From contig JACPYL010000001.1 of the NCBI GenBank assembly GCA_016196065.1, positions 62,001-126,000 of the forward strand: 64,000 nt of DNA, written 5' to 3'. Both the position numbers and the translations under genes were made by a program. The notes below the pieces were generated by a model, which was not told the DNA's origin, made no database searches, and saw only the letters and a list, made by a program, of their open reading frames with translations. This document shows positions 4,893 through 27,630 of the stretch, piece after piece. Source of the stretch: Acidobacteriota bacterium. Lineage in GTDB: Bacteria > Acidobacteriota > Terriglobia > Terriglobales > Acidobacteriaceae. How positions within the stretch are numbered: position 1 is the stretch's first letter; each line of letters opens with the position of its first letter.

Positions 4893-5597
4893 ATGCATTT
4901 TTCTCCTGTCCTTGCATTTTTTGCCGGCGGCGAAATCGTCGATCTCGTTCTGCAGACTGGCGCGGTCGCTAAAGTCGTTCTCCTGATGTTGATTGCCTTC
5001 AGCGTGCTTTCCTGGGCAGTGATCCTTTCCAAGTGGCGCCTGATCAGCCGTGCGCGCATGCAGGGTGGGCGCTTCGTGCGTTCGTTTCGAAAAGCGCAGC
5101 GCATGCAAGATGTCGCTTCGGTCGTGGACCAGTTTCGCCCGAGTCCGCTGGTTGATGTCTTCGAAGGCGCGGTCGTGGAGTTCAAGCGCCAGATGGGAAC
5201 CACCGGCGCGATTCATAATCTTCCCGCGATTCAGCGCTCGATGCAGATTGCCTCGTCGGAAGGAATCACGCGGCTGGAACGAAATCTCCCGTGGCTCGCA
5301 ATTACGGGTGCGGTGACTCCGTTCATTGGGCTGTTTGGAACAGTCTGGGGAATCATTGACGCTTTTCACGGCCTGGGTACAGCTGGTGCGGCTACGTTGC
5401 GCGCAGTGGCTCCGGGAATTTCTGAAGCGTTGATCACGACCGCCGCAGGTCTCGCAGCTGCGATTCCGGCGGTGATTGCGTACAACCTGCTCATCGGATC
5501 AATTCGCGAGCTGGCGGCACGCAACGACGACTTCTCGCTGGAGATGCTGAACCTGGTCGAGCGCCAGACGCCGCAACCCGCGGAGGCGCGTCGCTAA
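4893..5597 (+). CDS. tolQ: TolQ/ExbB-type proton channel subunit of the Tol-Pal system
   Basis: This inner-membrane channel protein uses the proton motive force with TolR to energise the trans-envelope Tol machine during cell division and outer-membrane maintenance. The 234-residue length is usual. It has one transmembrane helix near residues 24-46, then two (about 133-158 and 170-195). These carry the MotA/TolQ/ExbB signatures GLFGTVWGIIDAF and APGISEALITTAAGLAAAIPA, including the conserved threonines. A TATAAT at 4864-4869 could be the -10 of the operon, but no good -35 is seen. The stop TAA overlaps the tolR ATG (TAATG). Confidence 0.93.
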   Translation: MHFSPVLAFFAGGEIVDLVLQTGAVAKVVLLMLIAFSVLSWAVILSKWRLISRARMQGGRFVRSFRKAQRMQDVASVVDQFRPSPLVDVFEGAVVEFKRQMGTTGAIHNLPAIQRSMQIASSEGITRLERNLPWLAITGAVTPFIGLFGTVWGIIDAFHGLGTAGAATLRAVAPGISEALITTAAGLAAAIPAVIAYNLLIGSIRELAARNDDFSLEMLNLVERQTPQPAEARR

Positions 5598-6025
5598 TGG
5601 CGTTTACCAATGCCAACGGACGAACGCAGACCGCGCTCGCGGATATCAACATCACCCCGCTGGTCGATGTCGTACTCGTCCTGTTGATTATCTTCATGGT
5701 GACTGCGCCGGTGCTGCAGTCGGGCATTGAAGTCGCGGTTCCGCATACGCGAACAGTGAAAGAGATCACGGAAGAACGCCTCGTGATCAGCATCGATAAA
5801 TCGCAGCGCGTTTATTTCGGCAACGATCCCATCAACATCAACCAGATCGCAGCTGCGCTGAAGAAGAGAGTGCGCGATCCGCAGCATCAGGCGATTTATC
5901 TGCGATCGGACGAAGCCGTGCCTTTTGGTGCCTTCGCGACCGTGATGGACGCGGTGAAATCTGCCGGTATCGGCAATGTAAGTATTGTGACGCAACCCAT
6001 CGACTCCCATGGCGGCAAGCACTGA
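5597..6025 (+). CDS. tolR: TolR/ExbD-type proton channel subunit
   Basis: TolR is the single-pass partner of TolQ. The 142 residues contain INITPLVDVVLVLLIIFMV at about 18-36, with the conserved proton-carrying aspartate D24. A periplasmic ExbD fold follows (VISIDKSQRVYFGNDPI ... IYLRSDEAVPFGAFATVMDA). The start overlaps the tolQ stop by one base and the 3' end overlaps the next gene by 17 bases, so translation is coupled across the operon. The intact aspartate is a useful contrast to the ExbB-ExbD fusion at 24551-25492. Confidence 0.93.
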   Translation: MAFTNANGRTQTALADINITPLVDVVLVLLIIFMVTAPVLQSGIEVAVPHTRTVKEITEERLVISIDKSQRVYFGNDPININQIAAALKKRVRDPQHQAIYLRSDEAVPFGAFATVMDAVKSAGIGNVSIVTQPIDSHGGKH

Positions 6026-23437: not shown

Positions 23438-23887
23438 ATGGAGAAACCGTTCAGAACTTTGCGCGGGTTCCTAGCGGGAAAAGAACGCGAAGAAGACACC
23501 TACTTTGCGTATTCAGCAACCTTGCGCATCTCGGGCGAGATTCCAGACATGGACGAGATTTCTGCCACCCTCGGACTCTCACCCACGCATTCGCACCGGA
23601 AGGGCGAGAAACGTAGCGCCAATGGTCATCCGTACCGTCAGGACATGTGGTCGTACACTCCCGCAGTTGAGAGATCAGAACCGCTGCACAGGCACATCGA
23701 CGCTTTGTGGCTAGAACTGAAGCCACACAAGCGCTATCTAATGGGGCTCAAGAAATCCTTGAACGTCGATGTGTTCGCTGGGTACCGCTCGAATTGCGAT
23801 ACTGCCGGAATCGAGGTGCCACACACCTCCCTAGAGATGTTCACCGAATTGGAGATTCCCTTCGGGGTTTCGATCATCGTGACGTAG
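23438..23887 (+). CDS. DUF4279 family protein
   Basis: The 149-residue soluble protein has the family pattern: FAYSATLRISGEIPDMDEIS at the start, HSHRKGEKRS, a WSYTP aromatic stretch, and the ending GYRSNCDTAGIEVPHTSLE with LEIPFGVSIIVT. DUF4279 proteins are of unknown function and occur sporadically. Some authors have discussed immunity-like roles, but nothing here proves it. No partner toxin is adjacent. The gene is bracketed by inverted repeat copies A and B, and its TAG stop is part of copy B. No strong ribosome-binding site is seen. Confidence 0.78.
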   Translation: MEKPFRTLRGFLAGKEREEDTYFAYSATLRISGEIPDMDEISATLGLSPTHSHRKGEKRSANGHPYRQDMWSYTPAVERSEPLHRHIDALWLELKPHKRYLMGLKKSLNVDVFAGYRSNCDTAGIEVPHTSLEMFTELEIPFGVSIIVT

Positions 23888-23917
23888 TTGTTGAAAAATC
23901 GCGATTACACCAACAGC
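23887..23917 (-). repeat. island palindrome, copy B
   Basis: GTTGTTGAAAAATCGCGATT followed by ACACCAACAGC. The first base is the last base of the DUF4279 stop codon TAG. It is inverted relative to copy A. Confidence 0.7.
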
Positions 23918-23963
23918 TGCGACGATGTACCGCGCATTCGTCTTGGGCTAAACTTGCAAGTTG

Positions 23964-24317: not shown

Positions 24318-24351
24318 GTTGTTGGGGTAACATCGCCATTACACCAACAAC
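24318..24351. repeat. island palindrome, copy C (most perfect)
   Basis: GTTGTTGG and CCAACAAC form the outer arms, with GTAA and TTAC as inner arms and CATCGCCA as the loop. The 34-base unit can fold into an almost complete hairpin. It lies 27 bases behind the small membrane protein gene. Confidence 0.75.
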
Positions 24352-24387
24352 CGCCCCAGGTGGCTCACCGCCCGACGCCGAACAAGA

Positions 24388-24419: not shown

Positions 24420-24550
24420 GGGCACCGTGTCTGACCAATCTGACGGAACCCCACCGGCCTGTTTGGTGTCTCTATACTTTTGTGTCTTTATACTAGTGAA
24501 GTCCCACAAAAGTTAATACCACGGAGGCTGTCCTCACTTGTGACACTCTT

Positions 24551-25492
24551 ATGGGTGTGAATGGAGTGGTGGCGTATCTCTGGCGCTCGATGGACTGGTT
24601 GAGGCGCATCGACGTCATCGTGCTTGTGTTGATGCTTTCCTATGTCCTCTTTGTCGTTGCCCGCGCATTCCACCGCATACAGATAATTGGAGTTGTGCAT
24701 CGATTTCCTGATGCCGGTCAGAGGAAATCCAGCGACCTGAAAGCGCAAGCTCGCACGCTCAAAGCTATTGTTTCGATCGCGCCATACCTCGGACTCGTGG
24801 GCACGGTGCTCGGTATACTGAATGCCCCCGGCATGGGCAGCGGCATCGCCATGGAAAAGAGCGCTGCTCTTAGGCGTATATCGTCGGGAATAGCAGAGTC
24901 ATTAGTCCTCCCTGCTGTGGCGATACTCGTGACCGTTCCAGCGATATGCTCCTACAACTATCTCTGCACTTGGATAGGCCTGCTGGAAAACAGGAAATCT
25001 GAAAAGACACGACGAGGTTGCCAAACAGTCACGGGCGGATTCTCACGCCCACCAGCATTTTCTTTGGTTGCTGCAAGTGGACTCGCAATCCTTGTCGCTT
25101 TGTACACACCGTATTTCGACCCACACCGAACAGTAGGCTTCGGCATCGATTTAATTTCGACTCGCTGCGAATACGTTCAGAATGATCGAGTCACCGTGCT
25201 GCATGTCACGAACGCAAGAAAACTCTTCATTAACGACGAAGAGGAGGATTGGGGAAATTTGGCTGGTCGCTTGTCCGAGATTTACAGCGTGAGAGAGTAC
25301 CGGACGCTCGATCTACTCGTAGACAAGGAACTCTCTTTTCAGACTGTAGCAGATGTGATCGACATCGTGGCCGGTGCTGAGAACACGGTGGGAACGGAGC
25401 CTCTGAACATCGAAGTCCGCCTGATAACGCCCGACGCGTTGAATGCTGGTTGCGTCGCCATACCGTTGAGGTTTCTTTCTGGTCCGATGTAG
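24551..25492 (+). CDS. ExbB/TolQ-ExbD/TolR fusion-like membrane protein
   Basis: In 313 residues two partners seem joined. The first part has a helix at about 20-40 and then a MotA/TolQ/ExbB segment: IAPYLGLVGTVLGIL (76-90) and ISSGIAESLVLPAVAILVTV (110-129). A further helix (about 170-188, FSLVAASGLAILVALYTPYF) follows. A periplasmic domain with ExbD pattern comes last (about 205-295, VTNARKLFIND, LDLLVDKELSFQTVADVIDI). The usual proton path is damaged. The ExbD-type helix has no aspartate, and the second ExbB threonine position is a proline. The start ATG has no good ribosome-binding site. The stop codon merges with repeat copy E. The role is unknown and the ExbD assignment is by eye. Confidence 0.65.
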   Translation: MGVNGVVAYLWRSMDWLRRIDVIVLVLMLSYVLFVVARAFHRIQIIGVVHRFPDAGQRKSSDLKAQARTLKAIVSIAPYLGLVGTVLGILNAPGMGSGIAMEKSAALRRISSGIAESLVLPAVAILVTVPAICSYNYLCTWIGLLENRKSEKTRRGCQTVTGGFSRPPAFSLVAASGLAILVALYTPYFDPHRTVGFGIDLISTRCEYVQNDRVTVLHVTNARKLFINDEEEDWGNLAGRLSEIYSVREYRTLDLLVDKELSFQTVADVIDIVAGAENTVGTEPLNIEVRLITPDALNAGCVAIPLRFLSGPM

Positions 25493-25522
25493 TTGGCGTT
25501 AAATCGCCATTACACCAACAAC
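25492..25522 (-). repeat. island palindrome, copy E
   Basis: GTTGGCGTTAAATCGCC followed by ATTACACCAACAAC. It begins in the TAG stop codon of the fusion gene, exactly as copy B does for the DUF4279 gene. A loosely related GTTGTTGCCGCTAACGC follows before xerC. Confidence 0.7.
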
Positions 25523-25557
25523 CCAACCCGGCAGGCACGTGGGGCAAGTTGTTGCCG

Positions 25558-26490
25558 CTAACGCTTATTTACTGCCTTTGCGCGGGGATGGGTCTGGTCG
25601 TACACGTTCATGACGTGCTTGACCGAGAGTTGCGTGTAGCGCTGCGTGGTCGCCAGACGCTCATGGCCGAGTAGTTCCTGGATCGCTCGCAGGTCAGCGC
25701 CTTCCTCAAGCATGTGGGTGCCAAACGCATGGCGCAGCGTATGCGGATGTACATCCGGGGACAAGCCTTTCGCGACAGCGATCCGCTTGACGATTCGTCC
25801 TACGCTCCGCGTTGTCAGCCGTCCGCCGCGCTGGTTCACGAGCAAGGCTGCGTTCGTTTTCTTCAGGGTGACCAGCAACTGTTGTCGCCACGGAATATAG
25901 ACTGCGAGGGCTGCGCGCGCCGATCCTCCAAAAGGAACGTAACGTTCCTTCTTCCCTTTGCCGCGGATCAGAATGGCTTCCGCACTCAAGCGAATGTCAT
26001 CGAGATTGATGCCGACCAACTCCGAGTTGCGGATGCCACATCCGTAAAGCAGTTCGAGAAGAAGACGGTCGCGTTCGGGGAACGACGCCTGTTCCGGCAT
26101 CTTGCCGTCAAGGACAGTGTTCATCTCCTCGATCGTAGGAACACGCGGCAACTTCTTCGACAGCCGCGGCGTAGAAACAAGTTTGGCGGGATTGCTTTCG
26201 ACGACGCCGTCCTGTGCCAGCCAGCGATAGAGCGAGCGTACGGCAGCCAGGGCGCGAGCCACCGAAGTCTTACCGAGGCCATTGTCATAGAGATGCGAGA
26301 GGAAACCGCGAATTACAATGTGGTCGATACTCTTCCATCCGCGGGTGCCTACATAGGCTGCGAATGCGTCGAGATCGCCGGTATAGGCCTTGATGGTATG
26401 CGACGACGCGTTGCGCTCGCGCAAATGGCGTAGGAAGGAGTCGGTGGCCAGCTCCACGGTAGTGCGCGAATGTTCGCGGTCCAGTCTCAT
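25558..26490 (-). CDS. xerC: tyrosine recombinase XerC
   Basis: XerC with XerD resolves chromosome dimers at dif. The 310 residues have an N-terminal SAM-like core-binding domain (about 10-95, [20 protein letters not shown]) and the catalytic domain. All catalytic residues are present: R154 (CGIRNSE), K178 (RGKGKKER), H250 and R253 ([12 protein letters not shown]), H276 ([10 protein letters not shown]) and Y285 (QRYTQLS). Length and lack of an extra domain argue against an integron integrase. It lies just beside the repeat-bounded island and 136 bases before xerD on the same strand. No dif site was recognised nearby. Confidence 0.85.
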
Positions 26491-26625: not shown

Positions 26626-27630
26626 TCATCGCGCTTTTGCCCTAGGATGATGCTTCGTATAGACACTCTTCAGCCGGTCGAGCGCGACATGGGTGTAGAC
26701 CTGCGTCGTTGAAATATCGGAGTGGCCGAGGATGGTCTGCACGGTACGCAAGTCGGCGCCATTTTCGACCATGTGGGTAGCGCAGGAGTGTCGCAGCATG
26801 TGCGGACTCGCGGAACGGCCGGAGCCTATGGACGCTTTGCGAACCACCTGCCAAAGTCGCTGGCGGCTCAGCCGGCGCGCCCCAGCTCCCACGAAAAGGA
26901 GAGGCGATGACTTCTTTTTCGCTAACACTTCCCTGCTATTCTTCAAGTACTGCTGCAAGGTTTCCTGGGCGGGTACTCCGAGCGGAACCATGCGTTCTTT
27001 GTCACCCTTGCCGCGTACCAGGATGTATCCCATTTCAAGTTTAAGGTCTTCGAGGCGGGCATCGGCCACCTCGGAGACACGCACGCCGCTGGCGTACAGA
27101 AGTTCGAGCATGGCGCGATCGCGGAGCGCGAGGGCCTGCGCTCGCGGGGAGTCATTGCGCGGTTTCGTCGATGCCAAGGTCGCTTCCACTTCGTCGCGGC
27201 TGAGAGACTTTGGCAGCACCTTCCATTGCTTCGGGCTGTCAATATTCAGCGTCGGATCTTTTTCAATCTTCCCGTCGAGCAGCAGGTAGCGATAGAGATG
27301 GCGGATCGCGGAAAGTTTTCTTCCGACTGACCGGCCATCGATCTGGTTGGAAAACAATTCCTGGATAAAGTCCCTGACATCTTCGCGACGCGCCCCGTTC
27401 AGAACCTGACGGCGGCCTTCCAGAAATTCCGCAAACTGTGACAGGTCGCTGGTATAGGCGGCGATGGTTAACTTTGCGGAACCACGCTCCACACGCAGGT
27501 AGTCTAGAAAACTGGACAGCGTGCGGGAATTGGCTTCAGAAGGCACAAACCAAGTATCCGCGTTGTCAGACGTTCGAGGGAGTAATGAAACAGATGCCTC
27601 GAACTGCTGAGCACTACTCAATACATCCAT
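26626..27630 (-). CDS. xerD: tyrosine recombinase XerD
   Basis: This is the second Xer recombinase, 334 residues. The core-binding domain spans about 36-125 (FLDYLRVERGSAKLTIAAYT). The catalytic residues are R184 (SGVRVSEVAD), K208 (RGKGDKERM), H277 and R280 (SPHMLRHSCATHM), H303 (LGHSDISTT) and Y312 (QVYTHVAL). The first 35 residues are extra and weakly conserved, so a later start is possible; no clear ribosome-binding site supports the first ATG. Xer pairs are usually scattered, so the tandem placement is notable. Their partner role is inferred from family knowledge. Confidence 0.85.
   Translation of the reverse strand: MDVLSSAQQFEASVSLLPRTSDNADTWFVPSEANSRTLSSFLDYLRVERGSAKLTIAAYTSDLSQFAEFLEGRRQVLNGARREDVRDFIQELFSNQIDGRSVGRKLSAIRHLYRYLLLDGKIEKDPTLNIDSPKQWKVLPKSLSRDEVEATLASTKPRNDSPRAQALALRDRAMLELLYASGVRVSEVADARLEDLKLEMGYILVRGKGDKERMVPLGVPAQETLQQYLKNSREVLAKKKSSPLLFVGAGARRLSRQRLWQVVRKASIGSGRSASPHMLRHSCATHMVENGADLRTVQTILGHSDISTTQVYTHVALDRLKSVYTKHHPRAKAR

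Follow-up and report, generated by a model that had tools for sequence, protein, structure and literature searches.

A single-chain ExbB-ExbD protein of Acidobacteria without the ExbD aspartate, a possible passive accessory of the Ton system

A gene in the window (the whole 64,000-nucleotide stretch of DNA that was analysed) encodes a protein in which an ExbB/TolQ-type channel half is followed on the same chain by a helix and a periplasmic domain of the ExbD type, and this helix carries no acidic residue. Fusions of this kind were also seen in six more genomes of Acidobacteria, Acidobacteriaceae bog_202, fen_85, Inc-BW-H-2-O_MAG38 (MAG38), Terriglobia SRVP_1, Ca. Sulfotelmatobacter JOPF048 and G006, a search of other genomes having been proposed in the initial annotation. 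From sequence comparison and structural models, the fusion may be a proton-uncoupled protein that assists the Ton system passively instead of forming a second motor, a reading that is held tentatively and for which the mechanism is one that we infer.

Anatomy of the fusion protein

The gene and its parts are located as follows.

24551..25492, + strand, ExbB-ExbD fusion gene, single open frame of 313 aa
24557..25030, + strand, ExbB/TolQ-type half, residues 3-160 (Pfam E=1.2e-14; VIA-align Z 13.2 to TolQ)
25055..25114, + strand, fourth helix, residues 169-188, ExbD-type without Asp (AlphaFold helix; no acidic residue; pN 0.17 versus pS 0.95 against bog_202)
25163..25450, + strand, ExbD/TolR periplasmic domain, residues 205-300 (Foldseek; VIA-align Z 10.1 to 8vgc)

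The opposite strand of 24551-25492 is interrupted by stops in the same register. The initial annotation had read this frame as one 313-residue chain joining an ExbB/TolQ-type channel and an ExbD-type domain, and Pfam, the AlphaFold model and fold comparison agree. Residues 56-142 matched Pfam MotA_ExbB (PF01618; E=1.2e-14, 54.6 bits against a cut-off of 22.9), and residues 185-276 scored 25.8 bits with Pfam ExbD (PF02472), whose cut-off is 25.4, a match that is marginal taken alone. Nine of the 10 relatives scanned also matched Pfam ExbD at E<=0.1, five above the cut-off and four below; the matches of bog_202 and JOPF048 were at ~2e-7 and that of SRVP_1, at 16.8 bits, was under the cut-off. 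A profile of seven fusion rows matched TolQ (1.8e-20), ExbB (2.4e-16) and ExbD (4e-5) among solved structures. The top seven Foldseek matches of the fusion ExbD domain were all ExbD/TolR. A phmmer search of the PDB with the lone ExbD domain gave no match up to E=5, but the profile searches did match, and the ExbD similarity of residues 205-295, on which the call of a fusion depended, is present by both profile and fold. The protein fell under the NCBI cut-offs of the equivalog models for TonB-system energizers, TIGR02797 (45.1 of 206.2 bits), TIGR02805 (39.4 of 135.35) and TIGR02804 (18.6 of 123.45).

The AlphaFold model built on a 29-row alignment (mean pLDDT 77) has helices at 16-48, 55-91, 103-154 and 169-188, followed by an alpha/beta domain spanning ~212-294; confidence is lower in the fourth helix (block pLDDT 52-65), and a model from seven rows only reached a pLDDT of 52 and its channel half was poor. 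The ExbB/TolQ-type half thus consists of three helices, with a short loop between the first two. VIA-align superposed residues 3-161 on TolQ/ExbB with Z up to 13.2 over 151-155 residues, although the tool warns that the shared arrangement of helical bundles can by itself give Z ~13; the channel-half assignment therefore depends mainly on the sequence match. Residues 212-294 superposed on the D-box-bound ExbD of 8vgc over 75 of 75 residues, with an rmsd of 2.0 and Z 10.1. Foldseek and VIA-align also returned unrelated helical proteins (CorA etc.), which were disregarded. In the normal topology the C-terminus of ExbB and the N-terminus of ExbD are both inside, and the predicted domain order of the fusion is compatible with this.

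Residues of the proton path

PMC6778125 places the two Asp25 residues of ExbBD close to the ring formed by ExbB Thr148 and Thr181. The ExbB-side positions in the window protein are as follows.

24803..24805, + strand, Thr85, equivalent of ExbB Thr148, kept (Thr in 35 of 35 ExbB rows, 26 of which came from a selection demanding a GT motif)
24911..24913, + strand, Pro121 at the ExbB Thr181 position (Thr in 34 of 35 rows, the window protein being the sole exception)

The fourth helix of the window protein, already described as having no aspartate, has neither Asp nor Glu in its 19-residue core, in the six residues before it or in the two after. None of the 14 related helices (seven fusions, six proteins with another N-terminal part and one short protein) has an acidic residue in this core, a fifteenth Asp-less row without the helix being outside the count; in MAG38 and SRVP_1 a Glu lies in the six-residue stretch ahead of the core. 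No homologue was seen in which the Asp was restored. In comparison, the motif NVTPxxDV, with Asp present, was found in 34 of 34 canonical ExbDs from 20 loci of the same family search, a count not biased by selection for Asp; the 36 ORFs matched there comprised these 34 and two Asp-less proteins. The canonical ExbDs in the tree rows were not used as an Asp count, 24 of the 28 having been chosen with an Asp-requiring pattern. Among the sequences compared, loss of the Asp is a trait of the whole related group.

The proline reported at the second ExbB threonine position was confirmed as Pro121, and among the rows tested this change is private to the window protein; the five other fusions tested have both ring threonines. 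As the ExbD-side loss is common to the relatives and the ExbB-side loss is private, the latter is probably recent. The dismantling of the proton path that had been proposed is therefore upheld group-wide for the ExbD side but not, as a general feature, for the ExbB side: across the fusion family, by these alignments, what has been lost is the ExbD side rather than both. The five other fusions lack the Glu of the GISEAL motif, which is not itself universal. The canonical TolQ and TolR at 4893-6025 of the window retain both Thr and the Asp, as had been noted.

With both threonines in place, the rings of the five other fusions might accept a normal ExbD. It is conceivable, though unlikely, that a fused ExbB pentamer takes Asp-bearing ExbD dimers into its pore, with the fused helices elsewhere, and is still proton-driven. 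This would fit the Thr148 and Thr181 equivalents in five of six fusions tested, the normal ExbDs encoded by the same genome and the promoter class common to the fusion and the TonB operon, but not the Pro121 of the window protein, nor the better conservation of the Asp-less helix than of the rest in three comparisons, which suggests a role of its own for that helix.

The fourth helix offered no candidate residue for another ion. Asp21 (in RIDVIVL), where the first helix begins, is common to the window protein, bog_202, fen_85, MAG38 and SRVP_1, and is also present in the N-terminal fragment of G006, and could in principle serve a motor using another ion or protonatable residue. Such a motor is nevertheless highly improbable, as JOPF048 has RVVLTIL and no Asp21, the first helix of ExbB structures is not known to line the pore, and the fourth-helix core is without an acidic residue in 14 of 14 rows, even if a Glu stands just ahead of it in MAG38 and SRVP_1. 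Of the initial suggestion that the protein may not pass protons, or may use another ion or act as a scaffold or sensor, the Asp-less single chain stands, a helix residue for another ion does not, and a scaffold or sensor is possible.

Distribution of the fusion

The relatives are 25-55% identical to the window protein, and the full-length homologue with 55% identity is in bog_202, a genome of the same genus. The frame is intact in five genomes (window, bog_202, MAG38, SRVP_1 and JOPF048) and is interrupted in fen_85 by a run of N (assembly gap). The G006 copy is frame-shifted, over two frames (locus L069, 1435-2419), and G059 has a broken three-frame remnant of the ExbD half (locus L036, around 5020-5472).

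In the genus, 3 of 24 genomes carry the fusion. With five candidates scored per genome, so that weaker fusions could escape, the order search found matches at E<=1e-30 in 6 of 397 genomes, including that of the window and all in its GTDB family, and a phylum-wide search, over 396 genomes and at E<=1e-32, found three. MAG38 was drawn from a collection other than the 397-genome sample. One of the three phylum matches, G427, which belongs to another family, was rejected as a fusion carrier as it has separate TolQ and TolR, with the Asp. At least 306 relatives were confirmed in the family search, and among the 80 matches listed, of which some loci were read individually, at least five were fusions (four intact and the gap-split fen_85); a further 11 loci of this search had ExbB and ExbD as separate genes. 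At 36 of 39 loci tried, the ExbB ORFs were 140-282 aa, too short for a fusion. The rarity in the order genomes, together with the frame-shifted copy in G006 and the remnant in G059, argues against a role as a Ton accessory.

Selection on the fusion gene

Wherever dS could be computed, dN/dS was 0.22-0.48, estimates that are rough because dS is high in most pairs; silent sites were saturated in four comparisons, three of the helix and one of the ExbD domain with MAG38. Between the window and bog_202 the ratio was 0.26 overall, 0.24 for the ExbD domain and 0.38 for ExbB, and it was 0.37-0.42 for bog_202 and fen_85, 0.34 for the channel part of SRVP_1 and fen_85 and 0.48 for that of the window and MAG38. 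These values indicate that the fusion gene is not simply decaying and, on this measure, is under purifying selection. The fourth helix is 69, 48 and 54% identical to those of bog_202, fen_85 and MAG38, versus 55, 42 and 39% for the whole alignment, with pN of 0.17-0.34 and pS of 0.92-0.95 in the three comparisons.

The patchy presence in the genus and the broken copies in G006 and G059 would also be expected of a duplicate losing its function, motor residues first, as would the Thr-to-Pro change in the window, the missing GISEAL Glu in the five other fusions and an identity to SRVP_1 of 25-33% versus 44-82% for ten neighbouring genes. A decaying paralogue is nonetheless unlikely given the five intact frames, the dN/dS range and the retention of an upstream site in seven of seven loci.

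Phylogeny and origin

The ExbB halves of six fusions formed one clade (100/100), which adjoins a 468-aa ExbB of fen_85 with another C-terminus (100/100) and sits within a clade of acidobacterial TonB-operon ExbBs and one Gemmatimonadetes row (96/84). When the helix was included, the 15 Asp-less ExbD rows formed one clade (100/100) that joins the second ExbD of the TonB operon and one lone ExbD of the window's own genome (99/96). With the helix columns removed, the Asp-less rows were one group in just 10% of 200 bootstrap trees, and a single clade of the seven fusions had a p-AU of 0.0496, so the periplasmic domain of the window group may be a replacement, or its short length may prevent its placement. 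By these trees, the fusion is an acidobacterial paralogue whose source was the ExbB, and probably also the second ExbD, of a TonB-ExbB-ExbD-ExbD operon. The own genome also encodes normal ExbDs, and its TonB, the sole TonB checked against the family model, passes the TIGR01352 cut-off.

The Asp-less ExbD helix and domain were also found behind a different N-terminal membrane module in at least six proteins, one of them in the own genome.

L100 4667-5746 (own genome, C12), L064 850-1989 and L101-L104, Asp-less ExbD proteins with another N-terminal module, 356-586 aa

No Pfam family matched this module in the four proteins tested. Their existence would suit an unrelated scaffold use, in which a membrane-anchored ExbD domain would act independently of TonB, as a sensor or by binding the cell envelope; this is quite unlikely for the fusions, which have an ExbB half and a site of the TonB-operon type. 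A Ton-linked accessory is better supported than a scaffold or sensor by that site and by the placing of both halves in the trees.

Promoter-like site

24445..24471, + strand, promoter-like site GGAAC-N16-GTGTCT, of a class found ahead of the TonB operon

This pattern was picked by eye after the upstream sequences had been viewed, and was then tested with alternatives allowed. GGAAC-N16-GTGTCT is present in five of the seven fusion loci, and the other two have one change from it; it starts 44-106 bases upstream of five fusion gene starts. It is absent before six of eight other Asp-less ExbD genes and all six control genes. The related GGAGC-N16-GTGTCT was found upstream of TonB in 25 of 25 starts tested, which represent at most 21 distinct places and had at least 60 bases upstream, nine more with too little having been set aside. 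The strict GGAAC form occurs once in the 5.5 Mb of the own genome, upstream of the fusion gene. This count does not exceed chance (2-3 sites expected at equal base frequencies; one match in a backward control), and the weight of the site lies in position and recurrence, not in rarity in the genome. As sequence sites, those of the fusion and the TonB operon belong to one class of putative promoters. The site may be similar to ECF sigma-factor promoters.

Two further observations were made. GGAGC-N16-GTGTCT at ~60 bases before TonB (e.g. L002 11-37) is conserved and is perhaps an ECF-type control site of acidobacterial TonB operons. At the gene for the 468-aa ExbB of fen_85 (L039 2481-3887), a site of the fusion-promoter type overlaps the start picked by the ORF finder.

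Genetic context and a dispersed repeat

SRVP_1 shares the window gene block 19714-41802 (L116), locally rearranged, with the fusion inside. In the flanking sequence compared, no gene adjacent to the fusion in bog_202, fen_85, MAG38, JOPF048 or G006 was shared with the window, and one distant weak match was seen in G006. Two tyrosine recombinases adjoin the fusion gene (25558-26490 and 26626-27630), but a mobile element was rejected on the neighbourhood as both have counterparts in the shared SRVP_1 block (82% and 70% identical); they are accordingly read as probable XerC/XerD-like housekeeping genes.

A dispersed palindromic repeat has three copies in the window.

23884-23918, no strand, repeat copy
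24318-24352, no strand, repeat copy upstream of the fusion gene
25489-25523, no strand, repeat copy with the TAG stop of the fusion gene in its first bases

The repeat contains or abuts the stop codons of two window genes, the fusion and a DUF4279 gene, and degenerate copies read by eye follow the stops of bog_202 and fen_85. The own genome has 15 copies at <=1 mismatch and a control had none. At only 5 of the 12 copies elsewhere in the genome does a same-strand ORF of >=60 aa end within 60 bases, which argues against an integron gene cassette, a reading that the copies at stop codons could suggest. No integron integrase above the TIGR02249 cut-off was found in the own genome, and none in the 24 genomes of the genus at E<=1e-40, a search in which the control genomes gave no match either. 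Folding z-scores were mixed, at -1.55, -0.77 and +0.79 for the minus strands of the three window copies, -3.63 for the plus strand of one of them, and -4.15 and -3.85 for two copies elsewhere. The repeat may be attC-like or REP-like.

Proposed role

The steps beyond the anatomy of the fusion are ones that we infer. As its own ExbD-type helix has no acidic residue, the fusion would be unable to couple proton flow to rotation through that helix, and a passive role beside the Ton motor is suggested by the retained ExbD domain and the TonB-type site. The fusion most likely builds a ring of the ExbB type, either by itself or together with normal ExbB. A pentamer, if formed, would have five ExbD helices, of which two could fill the pore and three would be left over. 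PMC10907165 describes binding of the D-box by the ExbD periplasmic dimer, and the ring, carrying ExbD periplasmic domains, may hold or buffer TonB by strand pairing of the D-box type. Alternatively, the fusion might tune the number of active motors.

A more specific form, doubtful but possible, is a dead stator: an Asp-less fusion with a helix kept by selection and a TonB-type promoter would capture TonB or ExbB as a brake, reservoir or clutch, and would be one member of a larger Asp-less ExbD clan, the domain of which occurs with other membrane modules too.

Comparison with known systems

In the listed open-access titles and abstract openings, no description of a natural ExbB-ExbD fusion was found. 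The residue held essential for coupling is missing here from a protein under purifying selection, and the fusion would represent a natural separation of Ton-motor structure from the proton drive, in which the role of the ExbD domain can be asked about without that drive.

The fusion has in common with the ExbB-ExbD Ton subcomplex (PDB 5SV0, 6TYI; PMC6778125) both folds, the Thr148 position and a hydrophobic fourth helix where the ExbD helix would be. It differs in being one chain, which fixes the encoded ExbB:ExbD ratio at 1:1 versus 5:2 in known motors, in lacking Asp25 and, in the window protein, in having Pro for Thr181; the loop between helices 1 and 2 is mostly absent in the window fusion and present in SRVP_1. 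The channel half finds its best match, in structure and in profile searches, in TolQ-TolR (PDB 9DDM, 8ODT), but the Tol proteins of the window (4893-6025) are separate, with their Asp and both Thr, and the trees put the fusion in the Ton branch. A short loop between helices 1 and 2 is likewise found in the ExbB2-type short ExbB (TIGR02805), which the fusion matches below the cut-off, whereas ExbB2 is a separate protein (140-151 aa) with a neighbouring Asp-bearing ExbD. The vWA proteins with an ExbD-like helix that partner TolQ likewise give a TolQ-like pentamer a partner of non-standard architecture, but they keep the proton-binding Asp, according to PMC12204202, and the fusion family has lost it.
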